A DNA stretch of 64,000 bases from Denitrovibrio acetiphilus DSM 12809. Lineage in GTDB: Bacteria > Chrysiogenota > Deferribacteres > Deferribacterales > Geovibrionaceae. The translations under genes and the position numbers were made by a program. Positions 12,396 through 53,853 of this stretch are shown here, piece by piece (positions within the stretch are counted from its first letter, which is position 1; every line of letters begins with the position of its first letter). The notes under the pieces were generated by a model. The model was not told where the DNA came from. It saw nothing but the letters and a program-made list of their open reading frames with translations, and searched no databases. The stretch lies in NCBI RefSeq assembly GCF_000025725.1, contig NC_013943.1, positions 620,001-684,000 on the forward strand, given 5' to 3'.

Positions 12396-12397
12396 TT

Positions 12398-14722
12398 ATG
12401 AATCCTATAGAATTGTCTGAAAAACTTGAAACTATTGTTGGGGAACACGCTGAACTTCTTGCGAATGAAGCAAAATCTTTGAAAGATGAATATGCTATCA
12501 TATCACCAGATGCTTTACAAAAAGCTGTCGATGAAATTAACGCAGAAAACAGGTTGCTACGTATTGGTATCGTTGGTCGTGTTAAAGCCGGGAAATCATC
12601 ACTGCTGAATGCAATATTATTTGATGGAGAATCTATACTGCCTAAAGCTGCCACACCAATGACTGCTGCTCTGACTCAGATAACTTACGGTGATACACTG
12701 GCTGCGGAAGTTGAATTCTTTACGCAGAAGGATATTGATGAGATTAAGAACGATTATGAATTAGTTGAAAAAATGATAGATAAGAAGCTGAACGAACTCA
12801 TTCAGAAAAACCAAGAAAAATCACATAAAACAAAAGAAAATGTACCGAACCCAGATGATTTTGGGTTAAGGGAAAAAGCCATAAGAGCAGTCAAAAGAGA
12901 TTGTGAGGGTAATATCAGCCTGATAGCAGCTCATGAACAATTCCAGAAAATGGCAGAATCAACTGTTAAGTATCAAGAACTTGAGTCCAACATAGTGATA
13001 AACAGCAGTTCTCTGAATAATTTGCAAAATGAACTGATAGATTATGTCGGGGCTGACGGTAAATATATGCCTTTTACAAAGAGCGTTCATCTCAGGCTTC
13101 CTCAGGAAAACCTCAAAGATATTTCTCTTGTTGATACACCAGGAATAAATGATCCTGTTCAATCCAGAGAAGGGAGAACGAGAGAACTTCTGAAGTTTTG
13201 TGATGTTATCTTTATAGTTAGTCCGTCCGGTCAGTTTTTTAGTAATGAAGATACTGAGTTGCTTGATAGAATAACGTCTAAAGAAGGTCTCAGAGAATTA
13301 TATGTAGTAGCCAGCCAGATAGATCTTCAACTATATGGAAATTTAAAAAAAGAGAATAACGGAGTCCTGAATGCGGTGGTAGAGAAGGCCTCTTTTATAA
13401 TTTCGGATCACATGGTGTCTACTCTTGAAGATATCAAAAAAGATCATCCTGAAATCGGAAATGCATATGATCAACTAATAAATGATAAAGATTTTAGGCT
13501 TATATTTTCATCAGGGATATGTGAAACATTAATTAAGGATTTTGATGATAGGTCTAAATGGGACTCTGGAGCCTGTAAAGCATGGGAAAATCTATTAAAG
13601 AATTATCCAGACTACTTTTCAGATGCCGACAGACAGCTATCTCTTGAAAATTTAAAAATGCTTTCAAATAAAACAAAATTACTAAACATAATCGATGATG
13701 TCAGGAGAAAAAAAGATGAAATTTTACAAATGAGAGTCAATGATTTTCTTGATGCTAAAAAGCAATCCCTAATCACTTATAGGAATGAACTGGGAAAATA
13801 TGTTCACGGGCAGGTTGAACTTATTAAGAACAGCAATATTCATCAGCTTGGAGAAAAGAAAGAAAAATTAAATATATTAAAAGAGAAGTCTTCAGGTTTA
13901 GTGGATGAGGAATATCAGACCTTAGTAGACGAAGTTGAACGTAAAATCATTAGGGAATTAAACAGTAAATTAGAAACATATTTTCATGAAACAGATAGTA
14001 AAGTCTCCGGTAGTGTTAAAACTGAATCCGAAACATATACTGTTAACAAAAGTGGAGTTCGTTCATGGTTAGCAAGAAAACTTTGGGGTGGTGGAACCGA
14101 AACTAAGACAAGGACATATAACACTGTCAGAGTGGGGGCTGTAAAGGGAGCAATTGAGGAACTTACTCTTAAAATCGAGCGAGAACTTGATTTACATTCA
14201 AGAGATATTCTTGCTGAGTGGAAAAAGCACCTACAGGTAGTCATTACTAAAAAACTACGTGAAAGCATAGACGATTCTTATATAGACATAAACAATATTC
14301 TCAGGGCATTAAGAAATGTTATTAATTCAGCAAAAATACCTGATTTTACATATGAAGGTTACCTTCCTGATTCTCTTTCGGACAAAAAAGAAGACAATAT
14401 TAGTTCACGTGGTTTTTTAGGTTTACGTGGTTTTTCAGGTTCTTCCCACGGCAAAGTGTCAGGAACTCTTACAGGCGACAGGGCTGATGATTTCATTGAT
14501 GAGGTAGGAGAATATATTTTAAAGTTTAAAAAAGAAGTTGGTAGGGATATCAAAAGTTTTGCCACAAGTCTAGATAAGAACTTTAAAAATATAAATTTCA
14601 GCAGAGAACTATTCGGCTATATAGATGATGAAATAATACAGTTGGAAGAGCAAATAAATAACAAAACAGTTACACTGGAGAATTATAGTAGAGTTACTAA
14701 AAAGTTAGGAGATGCTGTGTAA
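12398..14722 (+). CDS. Dynamin-family GTPase 2 of a three-gene operon
   Basis: The largest of the three, 774 residues. G1 is GRVKAGKSS (60-68), G2 probably in 'KAATPMTAALTQITYG', G3 DTPG at about 245 ('LVDTPGINDPVQSREGRTRELLKFCDVIFIV'), and G4 SQID near 306. A long charged helical insertion (about 105-210) separates G2 from G3, like LeoA/LeoB-type proteins. The C-terminal half is helical, with a glycine/serine-rich loop near 670-690 (GFLGLRGFSGSSHG) that may be a membrane-binding tip. There is no strong transmembrane segment. It overlaps the third gene by 1 nt (TAATG), so the proteins are likely made in fixed ratio and may hetero-oligomerise. Confidence 0.85.
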   Translation: MNPIELSEKLETIVGEHAELLANEAKSLKDEYAIISPDALQKAVDEINAENRLLRIGIVGRVKAGKSSLLNAILFDGESILPKAATPMTAALTQITYGDTLAAEVEFFTQKDIDEIKNDYELVEKMIDKKLNELIQKNQEKSHKTKENVPNPDDFGLREKAIRAVKRDCEGNISLIAAHEQFQKMAESTVKYQELESNIVINSSSLNNLQNELIDYVGADGKYMPFTKSVHLRLPQENLKDISLVDTPGINDPVQSREGRTRELLKFCDVIFIVSPSGQFFSNEDTELLDRITSKEGLRELYVVASQIDLQLYGNLKKENNGVLNAVVEKASFIISDHMVSTLEDIKKDHPEIGNAYDQLINDKDFRLIFSSGICETLIKDFDDRSKWDSGACKAWENLLKNYPDYFSDADRQLSLENLKMLSNKTKLLNIIDDVRRKKDEILQMRVNDFLDAKKQSLITYRNELGKYVHGQVELIKNSNIHQLGEKKEKLNILKEKSSGLVDEEYQTLVDEVERKIIRELNSKLETYFHETDSKVSGSVKTESETYTVNKSGVRSWLARKLWGGGTETKTRTYNTVRVGAVKGAIEELTLKIERELDLHSRDILAEWKKHLQVVITKKLRESIDDSYIDINNILRALRNVINSAKIPDFTYEGYLPDSLSDKKEDNISSRGFLGLRGFSGSSHGKVSGTLTGDRADDFIDEVGEYILKFKKEVGRDIKSFATSLDKNFKNINFSRELFGYIDDEIIQLEEQINNKTVTLENYSRVTKKLGDAV

Positions 14723-16224
14723 TGAGTCTGAATGAAATTAAATCAATAACGCCTTTGCTGGAAGAGCTTACGAAGTTTATTAAATTTAACCGTAGAAAAA
14801 CTACAGAGCAAATTGCCGATTTTCTCGGAGATATAGAGACAAGATATGTTGATCTATTGCATGAATCTGATGAGAAGAACTCTAAGATATCAGAAATGCA
14901 AAAAAAAATTGTAGATAAAGATGAAACGATTTCTGGACAACTAGAAAAAGAACAAGCTTTAATTGCAGATATGGATAAAATCAAAGCTGAATCTGAAATA
15001 TTGGCAAAAGAAAAATATGACATCCTATATAAATATGATTTTATTTCAAACATACTATCCGCAGAAAAAAGAACTTCAGAAAGTATGGAGAAACTGTCAG
15101 CATTGTTTAATGAAGATTTTATCAGTTTTGCCAATCAGGAATCGTCTTTGGCAGAGGAAGCCGAGGCTATTATTGCGCTACAGAATATTGAAAAGAAACT
15201 TAAAATGATTTCTGCCTTTCCAGAAATTTATAACAAAAAGATTATTGCTCTCGGTGGGGGTTTTAGTTCTGGCAAGTCATCATTCATAAACAGTTTCTTT
15301 GAATCTACAGACATTCTTTTGCCGGTAGGTATAAATCCTGTTACTGCTATACCAGCATATATAGTTTCTGGCAGAGATAATACTGTGAAGGGTCTATCTA
15401 AAGATCAAGGATGCGTACATATACCTCATGGAATATATACAAATCTATCGCATGATTTTCTTAAATTATTCCCATTCCGTATGAAAGATATTTTACCAGT
15501 CATGGCTATCGAGACACCCTTTGAATATGACAGCATCTGCTTTATTGACACACCAGGCTACAACCCTGCTAGTAATAATTTGACTGAGGAAGACGTATAC
15601 ACAGCAAAAGAATATTTAGATCAGGCAGACGCAATTATATGGCTGGTGGGTGTAGATTCCACAGGGACTTTGCCTGCATCTGATCTAGATTTTTTATCTA
15701 ATATCAATTTAGAAAAGAAAAAAATGTATATTGTTTTAAACAAAGCTGATTTAAAGTCTGAAGAAGATATTAAAGATATCATGGAAAACATTCAGGATAT
15801 TTTGGAAGATGAAGAAATTAATTATTCAGGAATCAGTGCATACAGCTCAATAAATCAGGATGAAATACTTTTTGACAAAATGTCAATTTCAGAATTTCTT
15901 GACAATGAAAATAATAGCACGGAAGTCAAGGAACAGGTTTCTATAGAGCTGGATACAGTATTTAATATGTATTATAAAGCGATTAATGAAGATATTGACG
16001 CTGCTAATGATATAAAAAGAGCAATTCATTCTTTAGAACTGGATATGCTTGAGTCAGGTTATGACTTTTCAGATGATAAGATCGGCAACAGCATTGAGGC
16101 GATAAAAGAACGTATTCATTGCAATGAATTAGAACAAAATTTAAAAGATTTGGATCTATTAAAAAACAAGATTTTTATTGCGTTGGACAATGTTTTTAAA
16201 GAACTCAATATAGATAAAAGATAA
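14722..16224 (+). CDS. Dynamin-family GTPase 3 of a three-gene operon
   Basis: A 500-residue protein whose first 120 or so residues are a coiled coil (repeated K/E/I/L heptads in 'ISEMQKKIVDKDETISGQLEKEQALIADMDKIKAESEIL'). G1 is GGGFSSGKSS (about 176-185), G2 lies in 'PVGINPVTAIPAYI', G3 is DTPG (about 276) and G4 is a canonical NKAD (about 339). After the GTPase domain only a short helical tail remains, so it lacks the long stalk of the other two. It may act as a regulatory or bridging subunit. The gene starts inside the stop codon of the second GTPase gene. Similar multi-gene dynamin operons include LeoABC of enterotoxigenic E. coli. Confidence 0.85.
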   Translation: MSLNEIKSITPLLEELTKFIKFNRRKTTEQIADFLGDIETRYVDLLHESDEKNSKISEMQKKIVDKDETISGQLEKEQALIADMDKIKAESEILAKEKYDILYKYDFISNILSAEKRTSESMEKLSALFNEDFISFANQESSLAEEAEAIIALQNIEKKLKMISAFPEIYNKKIIALGGGFSSGKSSFINSFFESTDILLPVGINPVTAIPAYIVSGRDNTVKGLSKDQGCVHIPHGIYTNLSHDFLKLFPFRMKDILPVMAIETPFEYDSICFIDTPGYNPASNNLTEEDVYTAKEYLDQADAIIWLVGVDSTGTLPASDLDFLSNINLEKKKMYIVLNKADLKSEEDIKDIMENIQDILEDEEINYSGISAYSSINQDEILFDKMSISEFLDNENNSTEVKEQVSIELDTVFNMYYKAINEDIDAANDIKRAIHSLELDMLESGYDFSDDKIGNSIEAIKERIHCNELEQNLKDLDLLKNKIFIALDNVFKELNIDKR

Positions 16225-28332: not shown

Positions 28333-28448
28333 TTGCTAGTTGGTTCTAAAGTTATCTTTTTTGTTGGAACACCAATAATTCTTGGCTACATTTATATTCA
28401 GCAAAAGCGTAATAAATAATTATACCTTATATCGACATGGTTGTTGCT

Positions 28449-28662
28449 AAGTTGCCGCAACTTGTATGCTCAAAGTTATAAATTTAGGGTTAAGTTGCGG
28501 CAACTTAGTGCGTAAATGTGCTTATTTTGGTTGCTGGTTGCGGCAACCATAAAGATGTCCATCCAGTGTACAAAAATGTACATCTGGCAATGTACATTTT
28601 GTACATTCATGTATGCTTTTTTATGGTAAGTAATTGACAGATAAGGCTTTGGTGGATGTACA
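28449..28662. repeat. Palindrome array (AAGTTGCGGCAACTT and TGTACA)
   Basis: Three long palindromes of one type: AAGTTGCCGCAACTT (28449-28463), AAGTTGCGGCAACTT (28492-28506) and GGTTGCGGCAACC (28536-28548). They are followed by five TGTACA sites (28567, 28577, 28591, 28600, 28657). The stretch 28333-28664 has no gene. It lies downstream of the RHH-like gene on the minus strand and may be an operator or segregation/replication site for a DNA-binding protein of this island. Confidence 0.65.
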
Positions 28663-29007: not shown

Positions 29008-30180
29008 TTAATTGCTCCTTATTAGTTGATTTTTCTGAGTTTTCTTTTTAATGAAGAGCTTGCCGCCTTTTCTGCCAACAGTTTTGTCTATCCTGTTTCC
29101 ATATCTTCGTAAGATCATGTCTAGCGTTTTGTGACCTAACATTTTCTTCAGCCAGTTAATGTTTTCCCCTACATCTAGCATGAGGCATGCGAAAGTATGT
29201 CTTGTTTGATAAAGAGTTCTGTATTTGATACCTAAAGCCTTAAGGCATGGCTTCCAGTATGTTTTTATAATATTGTCAGTTTTGTTGAATGGTTTGTTTT
29301 CATATGTCAGGAAGAGCCATTCTGACTTCATGTAAGTGAATTGTTTGTGGTAGGATAGGTACTCGTCTAACTCTGTTAAAATGTCTACTGTACGGCTATC
29401 TGCTGTCTTGGTACGGTGCTTTAACTTGCCTGCTGTGATTGTCCTGCTTATCGTGATTGTGTGACTATTGAAGTCGATATCGCCCCACTGTAACCCCATT
29501 ATTTCACCAGTTCTCATGCCTGTGAAAAAAGCTACAGCGAAGAATGCCAGCATGTTTGGATGGTGGCTTTTCATCCAGTTGAGAATCATTGTAATTTCTT
29601 CCAATGATAAGGGGTCGACTTCAACAGAGGAAATGTGAGGGAGTTTCACAGACGTGCATGGGTTCTTGGGAATCAGATCATCTTCCACAGCAGCAGAAAG
29701 TATGGAAGAAAGTACACCAACATGATTTTTAAGTGTCTTTGGTGAGACTTCAGAGTTCTTAATGTAGGTTCGGATATGAGCTGGTTTAATATCACAGATA
29801 GACATGTTTTCGAATGTGGCTAACAGGTTATTGATCGATGACGTGTAGGTTATAAATGTTGCATGGCTGAAGACAGTTTTTTGTGAGTCTAACCACAAAA
29901 TAGCGTATGTGCCGAAGCTGATTTGAGGTGAACTGTCAGCCATCGGTAATGCTTTAGCAACTCTAGATTCTGGAAAGTATTCTGCATACTTAAACGTTTT
30001 ATCGTCTATCTTGCATTCTAGTTCGTGAAGCCAGCCAGCCGTTGATTTGCATTGTCTGCACTTGCACCCATTTTTGCCTGTCTCACAAAAGAAAGGTGTT
30101 TTTTCATGTCTACGTACTCCAAGATATTGAAAGTAAACATACAGCCTGTTTTTCTTGCCTCTGGCGTGGATAGTTCCCAT
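29008..30180 (-). CDS. Tyrosine-recombinase integrase, second copy
   Basis: A 390-residue paralogue of the integrase at 2672-3871, with the same Cys-rich start ('CETGKNGCKCRQCKSTAGWLHELECKIDDKTFKYAEYFPESR'), Arg in 'FFTGMRTGEIMGLQWGDIDF', 'TRHTFACLML', 'LGHKTLDMILRRYGNRID' at the end. It is preceded by its own excisionase-like gene. Unlike the first, it does not end in an attachment repeat but 3 kb away from one, so either the element has been rearranged or it uses a different site. Confidence 0.9.
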   Translation of the reverse strand: MGTIHARGKKNRLYVYFQYLGVRRHEKTPFFCETGKNGCKCRQCKSTAGWLHELECKIDDKTFKYAEYFPESRVAKALPMADSSPQISFGTYAILWLDSQKTVFSHATFITYTSSINNLLATFENMSICDIKPAHIRTYIKNSEVSPKTLKNHVGVLSSILSAAVEDDLIPKNPCTSVKLPHISSVEVDPLSLEEITMILNWMKSHHPNMLAFFAVAFFTGMRTGEIMGLQWGDIDFNSHTITISRTITAGKLKHRTKTADSRTVDILTELDEYLSYHKQFTYMKSEWLFLTYENKPFNKTDNIIKTYWKPCLKALGIKYRTLYQTRHTFACLMLDVGENINWLKKMLGHKTLDMILRRYGNRIDKTVGRKGGKLFIKKKTQKNQLIRSN

Positions 30181-30189
30181 AATTTGCTC

Positions 30190-30426
30190 CTAAAGGCTTG
30201 CGAGTTTGGGTGCGAAGTCTTTCCTGATCTGCGGGTAATAGAAACGAAGAATCCGTTTCTCTCTGATGTAATGCACTTCCTCTTTGAACTTCATGGATTT
30301 TACAAAGTTGTCGATGGTCTGAGTGCTTACACAAAGCTCTTCAGCAAGCCTTTTCTTGTCCATAAAGTCTGGCTTTGATGGCTCATAGTATTCATTCACG
30401 ATGATGTTTCTTTCTGCTTTTTCCAT
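30190..30426 (-). CDS. Excisionase-like helix-turn-helix protein, second copy
   Basis: A 78-residue protein 9 nt upstream of the second integrase, parallel to 3900-4130. 'KKRLAEELCVSTQTIDNFVKSMKFKEEVHYIREKRILRFYYPQIRKDFAP' shows the same wHTH with R-I-L-R-F-Y-Y wing end. It begins MEKAERNIIVNEYYEPSKPDFMD. Probably an excision or regulatory partner of the integrase, translated just after the replication-type gene (4-nt gap). Confidence 0.75.
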   Translation of the reverse strand: MEKAERNIIVNEYYEPSKPDFMDKKRLAEELCVSTQTIDNFVKSMKFKEEVHYIREKRILRFYYPQIRKDFAPKLASL

Positions 30427-30430
30427 GTTT

Positions 30431-31270
30431 TCACCTGTAGATAAGTTCTGAAAAATCTATAAGAGTGGTTGTAAAACTGAGGCTGGAATTTGCGAAAAAA
30501 TCCAGTATCTCTTGATCAGAGATGTTTCGTTCTCTGGCGTCTTTTATGTATCTTAAGAGTTGGCTTTTCTGAGAATTTATAGCATCAGTTGCATTTTCGA
30601 ATATGTTTGTCGCTATTGGGTCATTATTGAAGCTTTCATCAAACTCGTTAAGGCTCATTTCTAGCTGGTTGATCATGAGTGTAGATTCGATTGTTTCAGG
30701 TTTAAGTAGATACATGAAAGTAGGGCGGAAACCGTCATGTTTCTGGCCTGTAAGATGCTTATCGATAAGACATGTTTTGAAATAGGCTGATGGCGTTGTT
30801 TGTTTTGAATCCAGAGTGGATATTGCTAAGCTGACAGCTTCCATTGAACGCTTGCTGATTGTTTCTGGATTTACATATCCAAAAGAATCGCCACAGTTGC
30901 TGTTGTATGCATGCAAGAATTCTTGGATAGTATCATCATCAGCTTTTTTAGAATTATTTAATTTATTATTATTCTTATTATAGTGCTTGTCGTTTTCCAA
31001 TCGATCTGCGGTTTGAATAGCATTTCTCAATACCGATATCGCAGGTTGAAATTTATCATAGTTACAAATAGTTATGATAGTTTTTTTATTGTCTGATTCC
31101 TTGTTGATCATGTGGTCGTTTTGCAGTTTATCGAAAAAAGTACGTAGACGTGATTTTTTCCAGCCAAAATCCTTCATGAGAGTGCTTTCAGTGGTCAGAA
31201 GTTGCCCTCTCTGAAGCTTAATATGCTGATGAGGGTAATTAGCGTAACCTTCTTGGTAGTATGTGTTAAA
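30431..31270 (-). pseudogene. 3' part of a DnaD-like phage/island replication protein, split by IS21
   Basis: The C-terminal portion of a gene whose beginning is at 33899-34011. From 'TYYQEGYANYPHQHIKLQRGQLLTTESTLMKDFGWKKSRLRTFFDKLQNDHMINKESDNKKTIITICNYDKFQPA' onwards it is the winged-helix region usual in phage replisome-organiser proteins; later residues form DNA-binding or helicase-loading helices. The IS21 at 31271-33898 interrupts it after codon about 36. Joining both parts and removing one TTAAA duplication restores the frame ('WFHLLF-NTYYQEGYANYPHQ'). Confidence 0.85.
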
Positions 31271-31291
31271 TGCTCGTAGCGGCGTGACTCG

Positions 31292-31460
31292 GACAGCGTA
31301 GCGTTTTCCCGTCGGACACCGTAGCGGAAACATTCGGACACCATAGCGGCCGCCGGACAGTCTATCGGTGCTCGGACACTGTAGCGCTCGCCGGACACTG
31401 TAGCGCTCGCCGGACACTGTATCGGCCTTCGGACAGCTTAGCGGAGCTCGGACACTTCCC
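31292..31460. repeat. Nine CGGACA(C/G) repeats at the IS21 left end
   Basis: Repeats of the form TCGGACAC-TGTAGCGC-TCGC recur nine times at roughly 19-20 bp spacing, two of them exact tandem copies near 31390. They are typical multiple terminal repeats of IS21-family elements, but nine is more than the two to four commonly seen; the right end has three. Confidence 0.85.
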
Positions 31461-31500
31461 GCCAGCAAGGTTAACCTTTAAACTGTCCTCCAATAATAAG

Positions 31501-33057
31501 TTGGAGGCAAATATGACGAGGTTAACAATGAGCGAGATCAAAGAGGTAATACGCCTAAGATACATAAACCAGCTTTCCATCCGTCAGATATCGGTATCCA
31601 CCGGAATCCCTAAGTCAACGGTATCAGACTATGTGAACCGTTTCCGTATAACAGGCCTTAAGGCTGAGGAATTGTCTTCAGTATCCGAAGATGAGCTGTA
31701 CAGCCGTCTCTTTCCAGAAAGGTCAATGCCTTTGAACCGAACCTTCCCTATGCCGGATCTGGATTATATCGCCAGAGAGAAACGACGCAAGGGTGTCACA
31801 TGGCTTCTGTTATGGCAGGAGTATAAATCAGTCCATCCCGACGGCTATAACTACACTCAGTTCAAAGAGTACTGCAAGAAACACATATCCCGTCTAAGTC
31901 CGACCATGCGCCAGATATACAACGCCGGTGAAATAATGTTCGTAGACTATTCCGGCCTGACAATGGATATAGTAGACCGCTATACAGGAGAAGTGAGTGA
32001 GGCACAGATCTTTGTATCAGCTCTTGGAGCATCGGGAGCTGTGTTCGTACATGCAACAGAAAGCCAGAAGAAAGAATCATTCATCCTGTCTCATAGTCTC
32101 GCATTTGAATATTACGGTGCAGTTTCAAAGACCGTAGTGCCGGATAATCTGAAATCAGCAGTAACTAAACACACCAGAGATGTTCTTACGGTCAACAGCA
32201 GCTACTCAGACATGGCTAAGTATTACGGTTGTGCAGTCATCCCTGCCAGACCTGCGAAACCTCAGGACAAAGCAAAGGTAGAACAGGCAGTTCAGGGGAT
32301 ACAGAGATGGGTACTTGCAAAGCTCAGAAACAGATTGTTTAACACCGTGCAGGAACTGAACTCTGCCATAGCTCCGCTTACTGAGGCCTATAACAATAAA
32401 GTCATAAGAGGTATCGGCAAGAGCCGTCTTGAGCTTCTGAATGAGATAGACCGTCCTGAGATGCTGCCCCTGCCAAAGGAGAGATATCAGTATCGTGAGT
32501 ATCTGATAAGACATGTAGGAGTCGACTATCATGTGGATGTTTCCGGCAGCAGATACTCTGTCCCTTACAAGCTCATAAAGAACAAGGTGGACGTATGGCA
32601 CTCCGCTACCACTGTTGAAATACATCACAAAGGATACCCTGTAGCCATCCACCCTAAGTCAAAGAGAGGTTCCACTCTCACAGAGCACATGCCGCCGAAT
32701 CATGTCATGTGGCAGGAGAAATGGAACCCTACACGTATACTCAACTGGGCAGGCTCTATAGGCTTCGATACTGCAAGGCTCATGAAGAATATCCTTGATT
32801 CCAGAAGTCATCCGGCAAACGCTTACAGGACATGTATAGCTATCCTCAGCAGAGCAAAAAGCCATGATAAAAGTGACTTCAACATGGCATGTAAGAAGGC
32901 TGTAGAGATAAGAGCTTATTCAGTAAAGAGCCTTGAATCCATACTTAGCAGTAAAATATATCTTGAGAAGGATGAGAAGAACACTGCTCCGCTCAGCAAT
33001 CATAATAATGTGCGGGGGAGAGACTATTATAAAGAGGAGGACAAATGTCAAAGTTAG
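31501..33057 (+). CDS. istA: IS21-family transposase IstA
   Basis: A 518-residue transposase with N-terminal helix-turn-helix ('IRLRYINQLSIRQISVSTGIPKSTVSDYVNRFRITG') and a DDE integrase core: 'GEIMFVDYSGLTMDIVDRYTG' (Asp), 'KTVVPDNLKSAVTKHTR' (Asp) and 'KPQDKAKVEQAVQGIQRW' (Glu). The C-terminal Mu-type beta domain is 'YHVDVSGSRYSVPYKLIKNKVDVWHSATTVEIHHKG'. It overlaps istB by 13 bp, as is normal. Confidence 0.95.
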   Translation: MEANMTRLTMSEIKEVIRLRYINQLSIRQISVSTGIPKSTVSDYVNRFRITGLKAEELSSVSEDELYSRLFPERSMPLNRTFPMPDLDYIAREKRRKGVTWLLLWQEYKSVHPDGYNYTQFKEYCKKHISRLSPTMRQIYNAGEIMFVDYSGLTMDIVDRYTGEVSEAQIFVSALGASGAVFVHATESQKKESFILSHSLAFEYYGAVSKTVVPDNLKSAVTKHTRDVLTVNSSYSDMAKYYGCAVIPARPAKPQDKAKVEQAVQGIQRWVLAKLRNRLFNTVQELNSAIAPLTEAYNNKVIRGIGKSRLELLNEIDRPEMLPLPKERYQYREYLIRHVGVDYHVDVSGSRYSVPYKLIKNKVDVWHSATTVEIHHKGYPVAIHPKSKRGSTLTEHMPPNHVMWQEKWNPTRILNWAGSIGFDTARLMKNILDSRSHPANAYRTCIAILSRAKSHDKSDFNMACKKAVEIRAYSVKSLESILSSKIYLEKDEKNTAPLSNHNNVRGRDYYKEEDKCQS

Positions 33058-33779
33058 AAAACCTTATTGCAGAGCTGAAGCTCGCCGGACTGGAGGCAGC
33101 TCTTTCCAGACAGATGGAGAATCCACAGTACAGAGATCTGCCGTTTGAGGATCGTCTGCTTCAGCTTCTGCAGGCGGAATCAGCAGAGAGGCTGTCACGC
33201 AAGATAAAGAGGAACATGGCGCAGGCGAAGTTCAAAGACCTCAACGCAAGGGTCGAGGATATCGACTACACGATACCAAGGGGGCTTGATAAGTCAGCTA
33301 TGCTTTCGCTCATCTCAGGTGAGTATCTGAATAAAAAGCAGAATATACTTATCACAGGCCCCACAGGAACAGGGAAGAGCTTTATTGCTCAGGCTCTCGC
33401 CAATATGGTTGTAAGGGACGGACTCACCGCTAGATACTACCGACTTCCCAGGCTTATGGATGAGATGAAGCTGGCAAGACTGGACGGTACTTATGTTAAG
33501 GGGCTTAATAAAATAGCCAAATATAATCTGCTCATCCTTGATGACTTCGGAATTAATCCGCTCACCACCGATGATGCCAACGACCTTCTTGAGGTGATTG
33601 AGGATCGTGCGGGTATCAGCAGTGTTATCGTCACCTCGCAACTGCCTGTAGATCGCTGGTATGACTATCTCAACAACGACACTGTGGCTGACGCCATTCT
33701 GGACAGACTGCTGCATAGCAGTCACAAGATCAAACTTAAAGGTGAAAGTATAAGGAAAATTCAGGCGGATAACGCTTGA
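33045..33779 (+). CDS. istB: IS21-family ATP-binding protein IstB
   Basis: A 244-residue AAA+ helper, related to DnaC. Walker A GPTGTGKS (about residues 104-111), Walker B 'YNLLILDDFGINPL', sensor I 'SSVIVTSQLPVDRWYDYL'. It assists IstA by assembling on target DNA. Complete. Confidence 0.95.
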   Translation: MSKLENLIAELKLAGLEAALSRQMENPQYRDLPFEDRLLQLLQAESAERLSRKIKRNMAQAKFKDLNARVEDIDYTIPRGLDKSAMLSLISGEYLNKKQNILITGPTGTGKSFIAQALANMVVRDGLTARYYRLPRLMDEMKLARLDGTYVKGLNKIAKYNLLILDDFGINPLTTDDANDLLEVIEDRAGISSVIVTSQLPVDRWYDYLNNDTVADAILDRLLHSSHKIKLKGESIRKIQADNA

Positions 33780-33903
33780 TTTATAGATGAACTGGTTCTT
33801 ATAATCAGAAAAAGGTTACCTTGCGGCAAAAGTGTCCGACGACCGATACGCTGTCCGAATGTTTCCGATCCCACTGTCCGAATAAGCCGATACAGGCATT
33901 AAA

Positions 33904-34011
33904 TAGCAGATGAAACCATGCCTGCCCATATGCAAAAGGCTTATCTTCCCATAGCCAGTGCCCCATAACACTTCTAAAAGCCGATATCCATCCACAAAGA
34001 TCGTGTTTCAT
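33904..34011 (-). pseudogene. 5' part of the DnaD-like replication gene, split by IS21
   Basis: The first 36 or so codons: 'MKHDLCGWISAFRSVMGHWLWEDKPFAYGQAWFHLLF', matching the conserved beginning 'GWI.l.R.i..HWLW.dkP.s.gqAW..LL' of phage replisome-organiser proteins. GAGG lies 8 nt before ATG 34011, within an inverted repeat. The gene is interrupted by the IS21 element and resumes at 31270. Read together, the intact gene was about 310 residues. Confidence 0.85.
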
Positions 34012-34017
34012 GTTGTA

Positions 34018-34044
34018 CCTCAAATTAAGTTTTCTAATTTGAGG
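34018..34044 (-). promoter_or_regulatory. Inverted repeat covering the replication-gene ribosome site
   Basis: CCTCAAATTA (34018-34027) and TAATTTGAGG (34035-34044) form a perfect 10-bp inverted repeat with a 7-nt loop. On the minus strand the second half includes the TTGAGG ribosome site of the gene starting at 34011, so a mRNA hairpin would hide it. It may alternatively be a repressor operator. Confidence 0.5.
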
Positions 34045-34153
34045 CTAGCTCAAGATAAAAATGTGGTCAAGTCTTTTTGTTATTATTTATACGTATATAT
34101 TTATTAACAAGTTAAAATATATCTTGATATTTATATAAAAGTATAAAATGCAT

Positions 34154-34209
34154 CTTTAATCTTTAATCTTTAATCTTTAATCTTTAATCTTTAATCTTTA
34201 ATCTTTAAT
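34154..34209. repeat. Eight perfect CTTTAAT heptamer repeats
   Basis: The 7-bp unit CTTTAAT is repeated exactly eight times (56 bp). It lies about 145-200 bp upstream of the split replication-type gene and about 118 bp after the end of the gene at 34327. Possibilities are phase-variable promoter spacing, replication iterons or a DNA-unwinding element. Between 34045 and 34326 there is no gene. Confidence 0.9.
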
Positions 34210-34326
34210 CAAGAAAGGTTGATAGGGTAATATTTAAGTGGAATATAAATTCTTAAAATACGACAGGAGTATAGGGTAGTAAGGTGTTGGGGGCATTAAT
34301 TTGGGTACAGTTGTTGGGCGTTATTA

Positions 34327-34857
34327 TTACTTGGTATGATCAGTGATAAACTCACTTAATAAGTTCTGTAGAGATGAGAACCTAGCTATTTTATTTTTGA
34401 GTTCTAGGTTTTCTTTGTATAAATTTATTGCCTTTACCATTGGTGCAGAGGGGGCATTTAAAGAGGCACTTTTTCTTATGGCTGCTTGGCTATATCCAAT
34501 TGCACTACCTAAATCTTCATAGTTCATTTTGAGCTCTTTGCATGTATCTTTAATTATATTGAAAGATTCTTTTGGATTAATGATAAGTGGTGCATTTTCA
34601 GTTAAGTAGTCTGCAATAAGTTGTCTTTTCTCATTGATTGGAGCTTTTTCTGAAATCAGTTTTTCACGTATCTGTGTGTAATATTTATCTGCCATTTCAG
34701 CTAAGGCGTTGACCTGCTCATAAGATAAAGTTTGGTTATTAAGTACGTCAGATTGGAATCGTTCAATACCATTCCCAATAACGCTTGCTTCTGATGTTGA
34801 GTATTTACCTTTGTATAAATCGATGACGTAATCACGAATATTAAAGCAGTTTTTCAT
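34327..34857 (-). CDS. Predicted DNA-binding regulator
   Basis: A 176-residue protein. The C-terminal part 'IKDTCKELKMNYEDLGSAIGYSQAAIRKSASLNAPSAPMVKAINLYKENLELKN' looks like a Cro/CI-type helix-turn-helix (about residues 105-150), and the N-terminal half is helical with 'EQVNALAEMADKYYTQIREKL'. It lies upstream of the replication-type gene in the same orientation and could regulate it, with the heptamer repeats between. Family not recognised. Confidence 0.6.
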   Translation of the reverse strand: MKNCFNIRDYVIDLYKGKYSTSEASVIGNGIERFQSDVLNNQTLSYEQVNALAEMADKYYTQIREKLISEKAPINEKRQLIADYLTENAPLIINPKESFNIIKDTCKELKMNYEDLGSAIGYSQAAIRKSASLNAPSAPMVKAINLYKENLELKNKIARFSSLQNLLSEFITDHTK

Positions 34858-42718: not shown

Positions 42719-45175
42719 CTAAATTACAATACTCTGTTTATTTCTAACAATATTATCAACAAAATCGTAGATACTTTCTTCCAACACTGGAGTTTCGATG
42801 CTAATAATTATGGAGTATCTAGCCTCATTGTCATACATCTCAAGATGTTTCCTGTTTTTCCACCAACCACTTGCCGGATATACAGCAATTATTCCACACT
42901 TGGAGATCTCTGAAGCAGGTCCAATCCATATATCAGAATTAACAGAACCTCTATTCCTCTCCTGAGGACCAACTGCCCAACGAGTAGAATTATTTGATGT
43001 GTCAGGTTTCTCATCACTGTCTTTCCCTATTCTTAATATAAATTTTTCTTTCTCCTCTAAAGGAGTGTTCATATCGAACTTAAGGCGGTGTGAAGGATAA
43101 CCATTGTTAGACTGCCAACCGATATTGTCAGGACTCGGGTCTACATAGTAGGATAAAGTTATTCTTAACTTAACCTCTGTGTCGCCAAGACTTTCTAAAA
43201 CATCTACAGGCCAAGGCAATTCATATATATGCATTTCATTCATAGAGACGCTCGATTTGCCTTCTTCTAACACGAAAGGCTTTAAGCTTGCCTCACTTAT
43301 CATAACAAGACGGTTACTTATACAGTATGAAGCTTTTTCATAGCTCGGTACGCCATACCCAAACATTCTCAACAACATTCTTGTAGGGTCTGATTTTCTA
43401 TTTGAGGGATCAGCTTCAGCCTGCTTATACATTTCTTCTGTCCAATCGGCTGAGTGAACTAATAATCCACGAAGTGTCTCAGGCCATGCGTCAGGATAGT
43501 CGTTGGTTAATTTTGCAACAAAATTCGCCGCTTCTGCAGTGGCAGCACTTGTCGCATAAAATGCATCAAATTGCCTCTTCATGGGCTGATGACTTGTTGT
43601 AAGAAGAGATAGGTCAGCGGCTTTAGTTACCATATCTGAACATACTGCCAAGTTTCCACCTTCAAATACAACATCTGGCTTTATTGGCCATCTCCTCGTC
43701 CAAGTAGATGAAGTTTTCGACGCAGGACACAAGCCGCCCTTTGGAGCAATAACTCTGCACCCATGATATAAGTCATCATCTATAGAGATTTTTTCAGTAT
43801 AACCCCCAATAACCACAGAATTCCACGCCTGGCACGGGTCTTCAATTTTGCTAGCGAGATTTACAAAAGGATAAGATATTGCTTCCTCATCATGCAGGTT
43901 GCCTGCAGCCTGAATGAAAAGCCTTTTATGTCCATCAAGAGTTCCAAAACATAACTGATCTATTGCTCCAGACCAAGATGAAGGATTACCTACGCATAAA
44001 CTTGCATCTGATGTAGACGATGAACAAAAGAATCGTCGCCTCATTGGCTCTAATATTTCAATACTGGAAATGGAGTCCATAGTAATCTTCGCAAGAAGTT
44101 CTTCAGGGTTTTTGCCACTGTCAGGAGTAACTTTCACTGACTCCAGCTGGTGATTAATTATAACTGGCTCAGAAGTCTCTAGAATATTAACCATATCTCC
44201 ATAACATGCAATACCAGCCATATTCGTGCCATGACCATCCTTATCAACTGTTGACCAACTTGGGTCATATGATATGGAGTCTTTGTCACTTAAGAACTCT
44301 TTTAAAAGGATATGTTCATTATTAACACCCGTATCTAACAAACATATATAAACATTATTTTTATTATCAATTGTAAGTCTTTCATACAGGTCTTTAGCCC
44401 AATCGACTTGCTCAGAAGCTTCCATCCTATCCCAAAAACTAGCGAGGGCTTTCACTTCTCTAAGCTCAGCCACATCTGCTTGGTATTCCAGAATCTTTAC
44501 AATACTGTCATTGCTTACTTTTGCTAATGTTACAATTCTATCAGGGAAAACAATATACGAGCCTGAAGTCACTATTTGCAAAGCACGAGTTACTTTTCTG
44601 AACTCTTCAAATTTATCATTTGCTGACTCTTTCTTAGCAATCAGCCAAACCTCAAACCACTTTTCCGTTTTTCCGGGAGCGACACCATCCACTATGATTG
44701 ATTCTACAGTCGCTTGGTGTATCTGCTCTATACTTTCTATAAGATATTTCTGTTTTGGATTCTTTTGCTCACTGATAGCCTCATCATATGAGTCAAGGTA
44801 GGAATCTATTTTCTTATTAAAGACTTCAAGCTTGTCTGAAGAAATAAAGACAGTTGCATATTGCGCCTTATCTTCATGAAGTTTTGTATTAAGTAGTTTT
44901 AAGCCGCTTTTATCAAGACGATCCCATGCTAAGTCATGTTCAGGCAAACCACTAAATTCAACATAAACGCCTTGTGTCGGTTCAACTTCACCTATTTCTT
45001 CAATCTTTCTATTACTAAAGGAAGTTACAAGTGTTTGATATGTTTTTAATAGTTCCTGAGCGTGCGATTTAGAAGTCCTGACAGGAATCTTGCTACCCTG
45101 AGGGCTTTTCTGCCCTCTAATTTTATTTGGTTCAGCAAGTCCTTTAAGGAATATGTGAGGTAGTTTTTCTGGCAC
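42719..45175 (-). CDS. ietS: Subtilisin-like serine protease, IetS-like
   Basis: An 818-residue S8-family protease. The catalytic triad is visible: Asp in 'YICLLDTGVN' (about residue 281), His in 'DGHGTNMAGIACYGD' (about 312) and Ser in 'FYATSAATAEAANFVAKL' (about 541), with the oxyanion Asn in 'IQAAGN'. There is no signal peptide, so it acts in the cytoplasm. It is encoded 2 nt after an AAA ATPase, the arrangement of the IetAS pair first described on Agrobacterium plasmids and later reported as an anti-phage system. GTG start with AAAAGG. It likely cleaves protein targets under ATPase control. Confidence 0.85.
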   Translation of the reverse strand: MPEKLPHIFLKGLAEPNKIRGQKSPQGSKIPVRTSKSHAQELLKTYQTLVTSFSNRKIEEIGEVEPTQGVYVEFSGLPEHDLAWDRLDKSGLKLLNTKLHEDKAQYATVFISSDKLEVFNKKIDSYLDSYDEAISEQKNPKQKYLIESIEQIHQATVESIIVDGVAPGKTEKWFEVWLIAKKESANDKFEEFRKVTRALQIVTSGSYIVFPDRIVTLAKVSNDSIVKILEYQADVAELREVKALASFWDRMEASEQVDWAKDLYERLTIDNKNNVYICLLDTGVNNEHILLKEFLSDKDSISYDPSWSTVDKDGHGTNMAGIACYGDMVNILETSEPVIINHQLESVKVTPDSGKNPEELLAKITMDSISSIEILEPMRRRFFCSSSTSDASLCVGNPSSWSGAIDQLCFGTLDGHKRLFIQAAGNLHDEEAISYPFVNLASKIEDPCQAWNSVVIGGYTEKISIDDDLYHGCRVIAPKGGLCPASKTSSTWTRRWPIKPDVVFEGGNLAVCSDMVTKAADLSLLTTSHQPMKRQFDAFYATSAATAEAANFVAKLTNDYPDAWPETLRGLLVHSADWTEEMYKQAEADPSNRKSDPTRMLLRMFGYGVPSYEKASYCISNRLVMISEASLKPFVLEEGKSSVSMNEMHIYELPWPVDVLESLGDTEVKLRITLSYYVDPSPDNIGWQSNNGYPSHRLKFDMNTPLEEKEKFILRIGKDSDEKPDTSNNSTRWAVGPQERNRGSVNSDIWIGPASEISKCGIIAVYPASGWWKNRKHLEMYDNEARYSIIISIETPVLEESIYDFVDNIVRNKQSIVI

Positions 45176-45177
45176 TG

Positions 45178-46140
45178 TTAACCTTTTTTGTTTTTATAGG
45201 CTCCCTGGCGTTCAGAAATTGCATTCAGAATGCTTTCTTCAGAGATTATGTTTAACCTCAGCAGAATCGCCTCTTTAGCAGAATCATGGCAAGCCTTAAC
45301 AATCTCTGCATGACTTAACCCGTTAGCTTCATTAGCTATCCTATCACTAGAAAAATCTCTACCAAATGAACCAACATTATTATTAATCAATTTGCAAATT
45401 TCGTCAACACTAGGTAGAGAATAATCAACCACATCATCAAATCTTCTAAAAAGAGCACCATCTAAAAGATTAATGTTATTTGTTGCGGCAATAACAATAT
45501 TGTCAGAAGTATCATTTTCAATAAATTGCAGAAACGAATTCAGAACTCGCCTCATCTCTCCAACGTCATTATCCATTCCTCTATCCGCACCAATTGCATC
45601 AAACTCATCAAAAAGAAATACGCCGTGATCACTTTGTATAAATTCGAAAACTAAGCGCAACTTCGCACTTGTTTCGCCCATATATTTAGTCATAAGCTTA
45701 TCCATCTGGATAACATAGAGAGGCAATCCCAAGTCATTTGCTATAATCTTTGCTGTCATTGTTTTGCCTGTTCCAGGAGGACCGGAAAGTAAAATCTTAC
45801 GACGATGGGTTAACCCATGCTTTTGTATAGTTTCTTTCGCACGGTACTCTTTCAGAATCCTCACAATCCTCTCTTTTAAAACATCAGAAGCGACCATATC
45901 TGCAAGTTTTTCATCGGGATTAAAAGCAACAAAAAAGTCGCCCATCTCCTTCGATTTCGGGAACTGAGTAACTTTCGTTTTCTTAGACTTATCAACAAGG
46001 TTTTTTATATCTCTAGCTAAAGCGGTATGTCCAAGACGAGCTTCATGTGCAGCCATTTGCAGGGCGATTGAAGAAAATCTATCTTTATCATTTTCAAAAT
46101 GGCTTCTAAGTAGAGCCTTTATCTGTTCTGAAGTTGCCAT
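45178..46140 (-). CDS. ietA: AAA+ ATPase, IetA-like
   Basis: A 320-residue AAA+ ATPase: Walker A GPPGTGKT (about 120-127), Walker B 'VFLFDEFDAIGADRG' (about 175-180), sensor 'NIVIAATNNINLLDGALFRRFDDVV' with arginine finger. The N-terminus 'ALLRSHFENDKDRFSSIALQMAAHEARLGH' is characteristic of the ATPase paired with subtilase in IetAS-type loci. Upstream AAGGAT before ATG 46140. It probably senses infection or loss of the element and unleashes the protease encoded next. Confidence 0.85.
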   Translation of the reverse strand: MATSEQIKALLRSHFENDKDRFSSIALQMAAHEARLGHTALARDIKNLVDKSKKTKVTQFPKSKEMGDFFVAFNPDEKLADMVASDVLKERIVRILKEYRAKETIQKHGLTHRRKILLSGPPGTGKTMTAKIIANDLGLPLYVIQMDKLMTKYMGETSAKLRLVFEFIQSDHGVFLFDEFDAIGADRGMDNDVGEMRRVLNSFLQFIENDTSDNIVIAATNNINLLDGALFRRFDDVVDYSLPSVDEICKLINNNVGSFGRDFSSDRIANEANGLSHAEIVKACHDSAKEAILLRLNIISEESILNAISERQGAYKNKKG

Positions 46141-47502: not shown

Positions 47503-49629
47503 TTAAATAAATCTCGAGCTTATGTCAATACTACCCCTTGCATGGTACTCCTGATCACAATGAGCGTCAAAGCCATTAGTATAAAGCTTGTTCAACAGTG
47601 AGATAGCATCCTTAATACTCATATTGAGATGTTTTGTAAAAAAATCTACGACATTGTATTTCCGGCTTCGATACATAATATAACGCCCCCCAGCTGCATA
47701 TTCAGACTCATTTATTTCGAAGTGTTCCTTGGCATAATCAATACATATCTGAGGATCTAATTTAGCTTTGATATCTGCTAACTCTTTCTTATTTGCCTCA
47801 GCTTTTGCATTTTCATATATTCGTTCAAGCCCCTTTTGGATCTCTGACAAATTATTATGACCTGAAATATTTACTTTTTCTATTAATTGCAATAATTTGT
47901 CATTCGACATTATAGAACGAGTCTCATGAAGCTTCCTTTCTTTCACGACCTGAGCATGCACTTCAAAAAACAGTTCTTTAAAAGTTTCACTGCTTGATTT
48001 AGTTGGCATCATAGAACCAAGTAGCCAGCCTTTACTAACTCCAATCATGATCATCTTTTTAATATCTGCCCTCATATCTCCTGAAGAGCTTAAACAGATT
48101 AAATTGCCGTTGTCAGTGATCTTCGATCCTGTATTATAATTCATAAACTCAACAACCCCGGTCATGCGATTTGATCTAATATGAAAGTCTATCATGATCG
48201 CTGGCGGGATGTTCTGTTCATAAATTGCCCAAAATACTCTTGACCTGTTTGTCATTATTTTTATAATTTTGGGATCAACCTTTTCCATCTTATTGATTAG
48301 TAATTTAGCAATCCGACTTTCAAGGCTATTCATATTGCTACCGTAGCTTTGCGAAGCAATATAAATTTCTTCAACGTTCTTACGCACCGTTTCCCCGCTG
48401 CTTCTTATGCGTTGTAACCCCTTGATTGCATCTTCACTAATCTGATGGTTTGATGCACCCCCCTGCTCAGCGTTCACCCTTTTGTCTTCATTGTAACCAG
48501 CATGTTGCTCATCGCTGAGTTCTTTCCATAGAAATTCACTATCAGGAGTATTCAGGTATTCACTGCCCAACCGCTTCTTTTCCATAGCCTTTGCGTACCG
48601 CTTTTTAACTTGTTTACGCCGATTAATATAATACTTGGTCATTATCTCTTTATATTCAGCTTCAGACTTTAATTTCTCTTTCTGAGAATCCTGCAATGAT
48701 CTGCTACTGAGCTCTTTCCTGTGTTTGTCTATGAGCAACATGCGGCTTTTATCTTTAAAAAATTCTGGTTGATGTAAATAGCCATCAAAAACAATCGGAG
48801 GTTCTCCTTCCAAAAAATATGCTCGTATTTCTGTCTTATTACCTCTCTCAATAACCTCAACATCAGTGAACTCTCCTGTTGACCATAAGTAGTCTATTAT
48901 TCCTTTATGAGTCGAGATTTCCTTCTTTTTAACCAAGTCAATGATTGCTTCGTTGGCAGCCTTTTTGATATTAACCCTAATTTCTATTAGCTGCAGTTCT
49001 TCAGAAGCCATCTCCTTATATCTACCAAGCAACTCAGACCGATTATTATAAAGCCGCCGGTGTGTTTTAGGTGATGTAAGACCAAATCGTTTATTGATAA
49101 GTTCCTGGGTTGCATCGTTTGCCGCTAGCATCTCTTTGTAATCCTTTCCGCCAGTTCTCCCCTCGCACCGTACTAACTGATTTCCTGTTGAAAGATGTAC
49201 CTTGGGCATAACAACATGGATGTGAGGTAGCCTCTCAATTTCTTCTCCCGTCAGCTTATCTTTGTAAGATTTAAGGCGGGGCAAATGGGCCTCTGCATAA
49301 ACATTGTAATCATCCTTTTTGAATCCAGCCCCCATCATTTTTACAACTTGTTCTGTTATATTCACCATATTTTTTTCTGCCTCAGGTTCACCGCTTCCAA
49401 GACATAGTTTATCGGCATCTTCAGGCGAAAAGCTAATTGTAAAATGGTAATAGTTCTCAGCCCATCCTTTGTCTTTTATATTGTCTAAAATCTTTTTCGT
49501 AACATCGAAATTACCAAGGATTTGTACTCTTCTGTCAAGCTCATCACGAGTCTTATCACGCCCATACATCTTTCCTGTCAGCAGGTACTGCTCTATACCT
49601 TCCTTGCCGGAGCCTGGCACAATAATCAT
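47503..49629 (-). CDS. Relaxase / mobilisation nuclease
   Basis: A 708-residue relaxase. The N-terminal HUH endonuclease shows 'YYHFTISFSPEDADKL', a long loop and the metal-binding 'LPHIHVVMPKVHLSTGNQL' (H-x-H). The nicking tyrosine is probably in the first 25 residues (Y15 or Y22). The remaining 400 residues are helical, with 'RRKQVKKRYAKAMEKKR'. It would nick at oriT and lead single-stranded DNA into a recipient, using conjugation machinery provided elsewhere. The start overlaps the stop of the accessory gene (TAAATGA). Confidence 0.85.
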   Translation of the reverse strand: MIIVPGSGKEGIEQYLLTGKMYGRDKTRDELDRRVQILGNFDVTKKILDNIKDKGWAENYYHFTISFSPEDADKLCLGSGEPEAEKNMVNITEQVVKMMGAGFKKDDYNVYAEAHLPRLKSYKDKLTGEEIERLPHIHVVMPKVHLSTGNQLVRCEGRTGGKDYKEMLAANDATQELINKRFGLTSPKTHRRLYNNRSELLGRYKEMASEELQLIEIRVNIKKAANEAIIDLVKKKEISTHKGIIDYLWSTGEFTDVEVIERGNKTEIRAYFLEGEPPIVFDGYLHQPEFFKDKSRMLLIDKHRKELSSRSLQDSQKEKLKSEAEYKEIMTKYYINRRKQVKKRYAKAMEKKRLGSEYLNTPDSEFLWKELSDEQHAGYNEDKRVNAEQGGASNHQISEDAIKGLQRIRSSGETVRKNVEEIYIASQSYGSNMNSLESRIAKLLINKMEKVDPKIIKIMTNRSRVFWAIYEQNIPPAIMIDFHIRSNRMTGVVEFMNYNTGSKITDNGNLICLSSSGDMRADIKKMIMIGVSKGWLLGSMMPTKSSSETFKELFFEVHAQVVKERKLHETRSIMSNDKLLQLIEKVNISGHNNLSEIQKGLERIYENAKAEANKKELADIKAKLDPQICIDYAKEHFEINESEYAAGGRYIMYRSRKYNVVDFFTKHLNMSIKDAISLLNKLYTNGFDAHCDQEYHARGSIDISSRFI

Positions 49630-50096
49630 TTATCCTCCTCAGCCTGCTGACCAACAACTGTACTTTCATCAAGCACAAAACATACCTTGCTGTCATCAAA
49701 ACGACTACTCATGTGAAACGCAGAGTCTTGAATTTCTAGTAACAATAAATATACCTCACGATTTATCTTTTTGTTGATATGGCAGTATCTGGCCAATTGG
49801 TTAAGATTGTTACTCAGCTTACTAAGTAAAAAGAGCTTCCTTTCTTCAATCTCAAGCAACATTTCAGCAGGAGTATTATTAACAACTCTACCTCTTATCA
49901 CGCACTCTCGTGCATACTCAGTTATTGAAACTCCGGCACCCTTTGCTTTTGTCTCTATAGCATTATAATCAGCAGGCTTAAGCTTTATAGCTATCTGTTT
50001 ACTTAGCTTGTCCTCTTGCTTCTTTTTAGCCTTTTCTGCACGGATGAAAGCCTTAGCTGCATCCATAATGCTTAATTTCTTTTTATTTCTGCTCAT
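49626..50096 (-). CDS. MobC-like relaxosome accessory protein
   Basis: A 156-residue protein with a ribbon-helix-helix-like 'KQIAIKLKPADYNAIETKAKGAGVSITEYARECVIRGRVV' (about residues 35-75) followed by the MobC-type 'LFLLSKLSNNLNQLARYCHINKKINREVYLLLLEIQDSAF'. It would bind oriT and help the relaxase melt DNA. ATG 50096 has GAGGAATTT upstream, next to the candidate oriT. Confidence 0.85.
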   Translation of the reverse strand: MSRNKKKLSIMDAAKAFIRAEKAKKKQEDKLSKQIAIKLKPADYNAIETKAKGAGVSITEYARECVIRGRVVNNTPAEMLLEIEERKLFLLSKLSNNLNQLARYCHINKKINREVYLLLLEIQDSAFHMSSRFDDSKVCFVLDESTVVGQQAEEDK

Positions 50097-52899: not shown

Positions 52900-53853
52900 A
52901 TGATAGGGATAGATGTAGGGTATGGGGATGTGAAAGCCGTATATGTGGAAGACGGCGAACTGAAATATTTCAAGCTGCCAACGGCAGTTGCCTATGCGCC
53001 ATCAAATAGCATAGATATTATTGACTCTGCAGAGGTTGTTTACTCTTTTCAGGGACGTGAATATATAGTTGGAGAATCAGCCAGATTTGGAGCTTTTTCA
53101 ACGAGGAGTTTTGATTTCCTGAAAAGGTATAGCCCACTTTTCATTCATCACACTTTGAAGGTCTTAAAGATTGAGCCGACACACGTTGCGACGGGTTTGC
53201 CACTAGGTCTTTTCAACAGAAAAGATGAGATGACCAAAGAGCTGATAACTGCACAGGTAGACGGCAACACAATCAAGGCAGAATTCAGTATGTTTCCGCA
53301 GGCAGTGGGCATTTTGCTCGACTACCGGATGGATGATGCAGGTAAAGTGAAAGCCGATACTGCCAAGAACGGAATCGTATTAGACATAGGGTTTAATACC
53401 ATAGATGTGCTTTGTTTTGAGAAGGGGACGGCTATAAGGTCGGACGCTAAAACGCTGGACAAGTTCGGCATATCTAAGATCGTGCTGGAGTTGGTGGAAC
53501 TGATTAACAGAGAACATGGTATACAGCTTTCTGATCAGGAAGCGAAAGATGTTTTCCTTGCCGGACAGATGAATGTCTATGGCAGTAGGATTGACCTTAC
53601 GGAAGCCATCAGAAACATCACAGAGATGTATTTTGATGAAGTGATGCATAACATCAGAAGCCTTTGGGACAAACGACTCCAGAGGGCGGATTTACTGTTG
53701 CTCGCTGGCGGCGGCGCAGTTACTATTGCCAAATATGTTCCTTCTGAATATGCTAAGATTGTCAAAGTTCCCGAACGGTCAGAGTTTGCGAATGCCAGAG
53801 GCTATTTTAAGGCTTTAATGGCGAAGCAAGAACAGGCTTTAAAGGCGGATTAA
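52900..53853 (+). CDS. ParM/StbA-type actin-like segregation protein
   Basis: A 317-residue actin-like ATPase. Phosphate 1 motif 'MIGIDVGYGDVKAVY', phosphate 2 'NGIVLDIGFNTIDVLCF', adenosine motif 'LLLLAGGGAVTIAKYV'. Such proteins polymerise to push plasmid copies apart, with an adaptor bound to a centromere-like site. AAAGGAGG precedes the ATG. The following small gene is the likely ParR-type adaptor. It marks this part of the window as plasmid-like. Confidence 0.85.
   Translation: MIGIDVGYGDVKAVYVEDGELKYFKLPTAVAYAPSNSIDIIDSAEVVYSFQGREYIVGESARFGAFSTRSFDFLKRYSPLFIHHTLKVLKIEPTHVATGLPLGLFNRKDEMTKELITAQVDGNTIKAEFSMFPQAVGILLDYRMDDAGKVKADTAKNGIVLDIGFNTIDVLCFEKGTAIRSDAKTLDKFGISKIVLELVELINREHGIQLSDQEAKDVFLAGQMNVYGSRIDLTEAIRNITEMYFDEVMHNIRSLWDKRLQRADLLLLAGGGAVTIAKYVPSEYAKIVKVPERSEFANARGYFKALMAKQEQALKAD

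Follow-up and report, generated by a model that had tools for sequence, protein, structure and literature searches.

The perfect heptanucleotide array that lies ahead of the rep gene in the window (the whole 64,000-nucleotide stretch of Denitrovibrio acetiphilus DNA analysed here) is probably a neutral SSR that grew by slippage and not an origin of replication, and it stands in the leader of a decayed rep gene of a mobile element. The sequence-only reading of this region was accurate in its observations and over-read their function; what is present is a solitary SSR of heptamers, followed by a hairpin with a plausible role in translation, before a rep gene broken by an IS. In the sequence of events that we favour, slipped-strand mispairing from an AT-rich seed between the regulator gene and rep would have produced the array, while the origin would have been inside rep rather than in the array, at a place where the rep of the window retains an AT-rich tract. 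By hiding the GAGG sequence, the inverted repeat next to the start codon would most likely have lowered rep translation, or else it acted as an operator. An IS21-family element later cut the gene, and the array would be neutral at present. The coordinates of all these features are collected in Table 1.

Table 1. Features of the array, the interrupted rep gene and their neighbours, numbered by position in the window.
Feature	Position	Strand	Remarks
Tyrosine recombinase (integrase)	29008..30180	-	Pfam Phage_integrase 5e-21; phrog_1 7e-66
xis, excisionase-like	30190..30426	-	phrog_66, E 0.0016; homologous gene beside related integrase at 546 kb
rep 3' fragment	30431..31270	-	Severed from its start
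Linker inside rep	30945..30998	-	One GGAAAACGACA then TATAATAAGAATAATAATAAATTAAATAATTC; position matches the putative iterons and the AT-rich tract of relatives
Target-site duplication TTAAA, copy 1	31266..31270
IS21-family element	31271..33898	+	2628 bp; ends TG...CA; Mu-transposase C domain and IstB_IS21
istA	31501-33057	+	Within IS21-family element
istB	33045-33779	+	Within IS21-family element
Target-site duplication TTAAA, copy 2	33899-33903
rep 5' fragment	33899..34011	-	37 codons; ATG 34011-34009; frame enters IS and stops at 33805
Inverted repeat	34018-34027 / 34035-34044	-	Perfect 10 bp; 10/10 complementary, 7-nt loop
AT-rich leader, array to hairpin	34060..34150		16.5% GC
Heptamer array	34154-34209		CTTTAAT x8, no mismatch; reads ATTAAAG on the rep strand
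Regulator-like gene, upstream of array	34327..34857	- (as rep)	176 aa; phrog_4779 transcriptional regulator, E 2e-9

The eight exact CTTTAAT copies first noticed by eye of a model were recovered both by exact matching and by TRF, which reports an array at 34152-34210 with a period of 7, 8.4 copies, 100% matches and no indels, that is, a perfect short tandem repeat long enough to slip. Its distance to the start codon was measured as ~143-198 bp, in agreement with the 140-200 bp given earlier, and it is plausible, judging from the repeat itself, that the array is prone to copy-number slippage. The host sequence is a single contig of 3,222,077 bp, and in the 494-kb sample of the genome used for the repeat census the array was the sole tract with at least four copies of any 4-30 bp unit, the runner-up being 3.4 copies of a 5-mer. 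Three tandem copies of the heptamer were found at no second place in the 3.22-Mb genome, nor in 47 other Deferribacteres genomes. Under a point-mutation null the chance expectation for such an array in the genome is ~1e-15 to 1e-23, which makes it effectively impossible. The claim of rarity by chance holds against random sequence, but heptamers are the over-represented class among bacterial SSRs in published surveys, perhaps through the manner of polymerase slippage (PMC4692102). TAA recurs every 21 bp in each reading frame on both strands, and therefore the array cannot be coding and phase variation by coding frame is ruled out. The array RNA showed no structure (z +2.2).

Since the heptamer is found at many unrelated loci, and heptamers in general are over-represented among SSRs, the array is most likely a product of local slippage. 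A search for five tandem copies of ATTAAAG gave 86 matching stretches in 84,980 species genomes. The 80 loci that were read belong to Bacteroidota, gammaproteobacteria, Chloroflexi, Paenibacillus and others, and in 79 of them the array lies outside called ORFs. No homologue of rep, of the regulator or of xis occurs near any of the 80, and the search for a neighbour gene type common to these arrays yielded only one weak integrase match, at a single locus. Four-copy ATTAAAG was present in 3 viral contigs, and three permuted heptamers in 6, 3 and 0; because these counts are comparable, ATTAAAG is not special in viral contigs and was rejected as a special motif. One viral contig (L044, 894-1145) carries ATTAAAG arrays on opposite strands flanking a divergent AT-rich region, each of them near a ribosome-site-like sequence. 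It must be said that slippage alone leaves unexplained why the array grew at this place, since its length is an outlier in its own genome.

The gene downstream of the array had been called replication-type, and this is supported by both profile and sequence matches. When the flanks of the IS are joined with one copy of TTAAA, a single 315-codon rep frame results, and the joined protein matches PHROG profiles, at E 2e-25 for phrog_2514 'DnaD-like helicase loader' and at E 5e-9 for 'replication initiation protein'; tblastn against phage replication proteins gave 4e-20 over the first 110 residues, so that the resemblance covers the N-terminal domain. Rep has no Pfam-A match and no PDB sequence match, no other rep homologue, intact or not, was found in the genome, and searches of genome contigs and viral contigs gave no close relatives of it. 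Two points absent from the sequence-only reading are that rep lies on the minus strand and that it is split after codon 37; the ATG-initiated frame now consists of 37 native residues followed by IS-derived residues. The inserted element has istA and istB, multiple terminal repeats and a short target duplication, as expected of the IS21 family, and target duplications of 5-7 bp were seen at four copies of it in the genome. Near-identical full copies lie at 1.13 and 2.81 Mb, which suggests that the insertion into rep is recent. Copies or fragments of the element occur elsewhere in the genome at about 0.29, 0.72, 1.13, 2.74 and 2.81 Mb. Because of this cut the array now stands before a dead gene, and neither the array nor the hairpin now controls a working replication protein. 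The layered control of replication proposed earlier cannot therefore be current, as the IS splits rep and the genome is without an intact homologue.

The inverted repeat over the ribosome site, also reported earlier, was confirmed. On the rep strand its stem reads CCUCAAAUUA/UAAUUUGAGG, with the GAGG ribosome site of rep included in the 3' arm, and the minus-strand RNA is predicted to fold at -13.4 kcal/mol (z = -4.2) into a stable stem that covers UUUGAGG, 6 nt before the AUG, and so buries the Shine-Dalgarno sequence. Chance is an unlikely source of either feature, but the evidence against it is unequal; the array is far past its null, whereas of the Markov resamples made from the surrounding AT-rich stretch 1.75% contain a perfect 10-bp inverted repeat. 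No close homologous locus was found for the rep leader. This arrangement can fairly be read as a hairpin that hides the ribosome site, with a DNA operator as the alternative.

Comparison with 11 relatives of rep (nine from phages or plasmids, one from the same genus and one distant) may help in locating the origin. In the nine phage/plasmid relatives and the same-genus one (L010), repeats with a period of 9-24 bp lie inside rep at one common place, directly after the conserved N-terminal domain, and in nearly all of these an AT-rich run such as AATAATGAA then comes after the repeats. Their periodicity scores were above all 300 shuffles each; the distant relative (L009) gave no internal repeat signal by this score. 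The layout suggests that these internal repeats are origins, and it is known that the lambda origin sits inside gene O. Proteins annotated as DnaD-like or replication initiation proteins in Vibrio, Pseudoalteromonas, Staphylococcus and Bacillus phages are 37-42% identical to the first 110 aa of Rep in the better matches, and the AT-rich linker tract is common to their genes and to the rep of the window; however, the phage genes have clear internal repeats, whereas the rep of the window has weak ones and is split by the IS. The periodicity of its linker is 25/40, a value reached by 0.3% of shuffles; relatives whose repeats are clear score 27-34/40. From its position and composition this linker may be a relic or a degenerate origin, though the weakness of the signal (25/40) leaves room for an alternative origin site. 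The sampled relatives thus point to the place where the origin of this rep family should be sought, namely in the gene, past the N-terminal domain. A further element in the same genome (L046, 9217-9425; genome 549216-549424) has a 791-aa rep-like gene within which a 21-bp repeat occurs about ten times; its integrase is 49% identical to that of the window, its rep-like gene is different, and the 21-bp repeats look like a within-gene origin.

These comparisons bear directly on the earlier suggestion that the heptamers are the iterons of an origin, where Rep would bind them and melt the adjoining 16%-GC stretch. The direct repeats do adjoin a very AT-rich stretch that could serve as an unwinding region, they lie upstream of rep, and three heptamers make 21 bp, or two helical turns. 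In the relatives, however, the repeats are internal to rep and no array precedes the gene. In none of the 11 does a 5-15 bp unit exceed 2.2 tandem copies in the 400 bp upstream of rep, and conserved upstream iterons were rejected on this count. Moreover, the ATTAAAG array is present at many loci without rep, and a heptamer unit is at odds with textbook plasmid iterons, which are ~17-22 bp long. We therefore regard an iteron origin at the array as very unlikely. A variant in which the origin moved from rep into the upstream heptamers, with slippage setting the copy number of the replicon until the IS21-family insertion, appears to us highly improbable. Preference for a neutral SSR takes a candidate origin and switch off the list.

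Two other explanations give the array or the inverted repeat a regulatory role. The array may have been a tuning (contingency) repeat whose copy number set transcription of rep or of the regulator before the IS insertion, in the manner of the ATCTTTC repeats of hmw1A/hmw2A in Haemophilus influenzae, where hmw transcript falls as the number of copies rises (PMC8262952). Both arrays are perfect, non-coding, of 7-bp units and upstream of a gene, the one studied here is near AT-rich promoter-like sequence, and the unit read as ATCTTTA differs by one base from ATCTTTC, although in the window this reading is on the strand opposite the gene. For any role that the array may once have had, the hmw1A (ATCTTTC)n repeat would be the closest precedent. 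Nevertheless, the hmw arrays overlap mapped promoters, vary among isolates and change expression (PMC8262952, PMC2651432), whereas the gene downstream here is a broken mobile-element rep, interrupted by the IS, so that there is no intact gene whose expression copy number could change. Sigma70-like sites in the leader are weak and no commoner than chance (for example TTGTTA-17-AATAAT, 34110-34082), and since the candidate promoters sit between array and gene, extra copies would leave the -35/-10 spacing unchanged. The other ATTAAAG loci, too, are without a common type of neighbour, and on balance a past tuning role seems unlikely. With respect to the inverted repeat, it could be a DNA operator for the 176-aa regulator, with the array as a spacer or secondary binding site. 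It forms a 27-bp palindrome immediately ahead of the rep start codon, and immediately upstream is the regulator-like gene, which is oriented as rep is; however, the palindrome has no second copy in the window, the promoter region of the regulator itself included, and this combined arrangement is in our view quite improbable. Growth of a neutral SSR by slippage is still the reading that we prefer. The TAACTGA heptamers of Beggiatoaceae, Cyanobacteria and some Bacteroidetes are likewise tandem, intergenic and ahead of genes, but they form 169 sets genome-wide whose ends, in most cases, are only nucleotides away from a start codon (PMC4679880), whereas here there is one array, 143 bp off.

The genes around the array are ordered as a regulator-rep-xis-int module, and this module is the core of an integrated element of phage-like or mobilizable type. 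Eleven family genomes gave no homologue of the regulator, and a search of the window for attachment-site repeats of the element gave no direct repeat of at least 13 bp. Downstream of the integrase, at 28447-28546, GTTGC(C/G)GCAAC occurs in inverted and direct copies, which are possible recombinase arm sites and a possible element end. A weak relaxase match and a NikA/MobC-like gene are located at 47503-50096, and an actin-like ParM-type partition gene at 52900-53853; together they suggest that this region may have come from a mobilizable, plasmid-like element that integrated here and now contains many IS copies. At 42719-46140, on a mobile island, a subtilase (S8) gene adjoins an AAA ATPase gene, and by resemblance the pair could form a defence module. 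Three dynamin-like GTPase genes occur in succession at 10662-16224.
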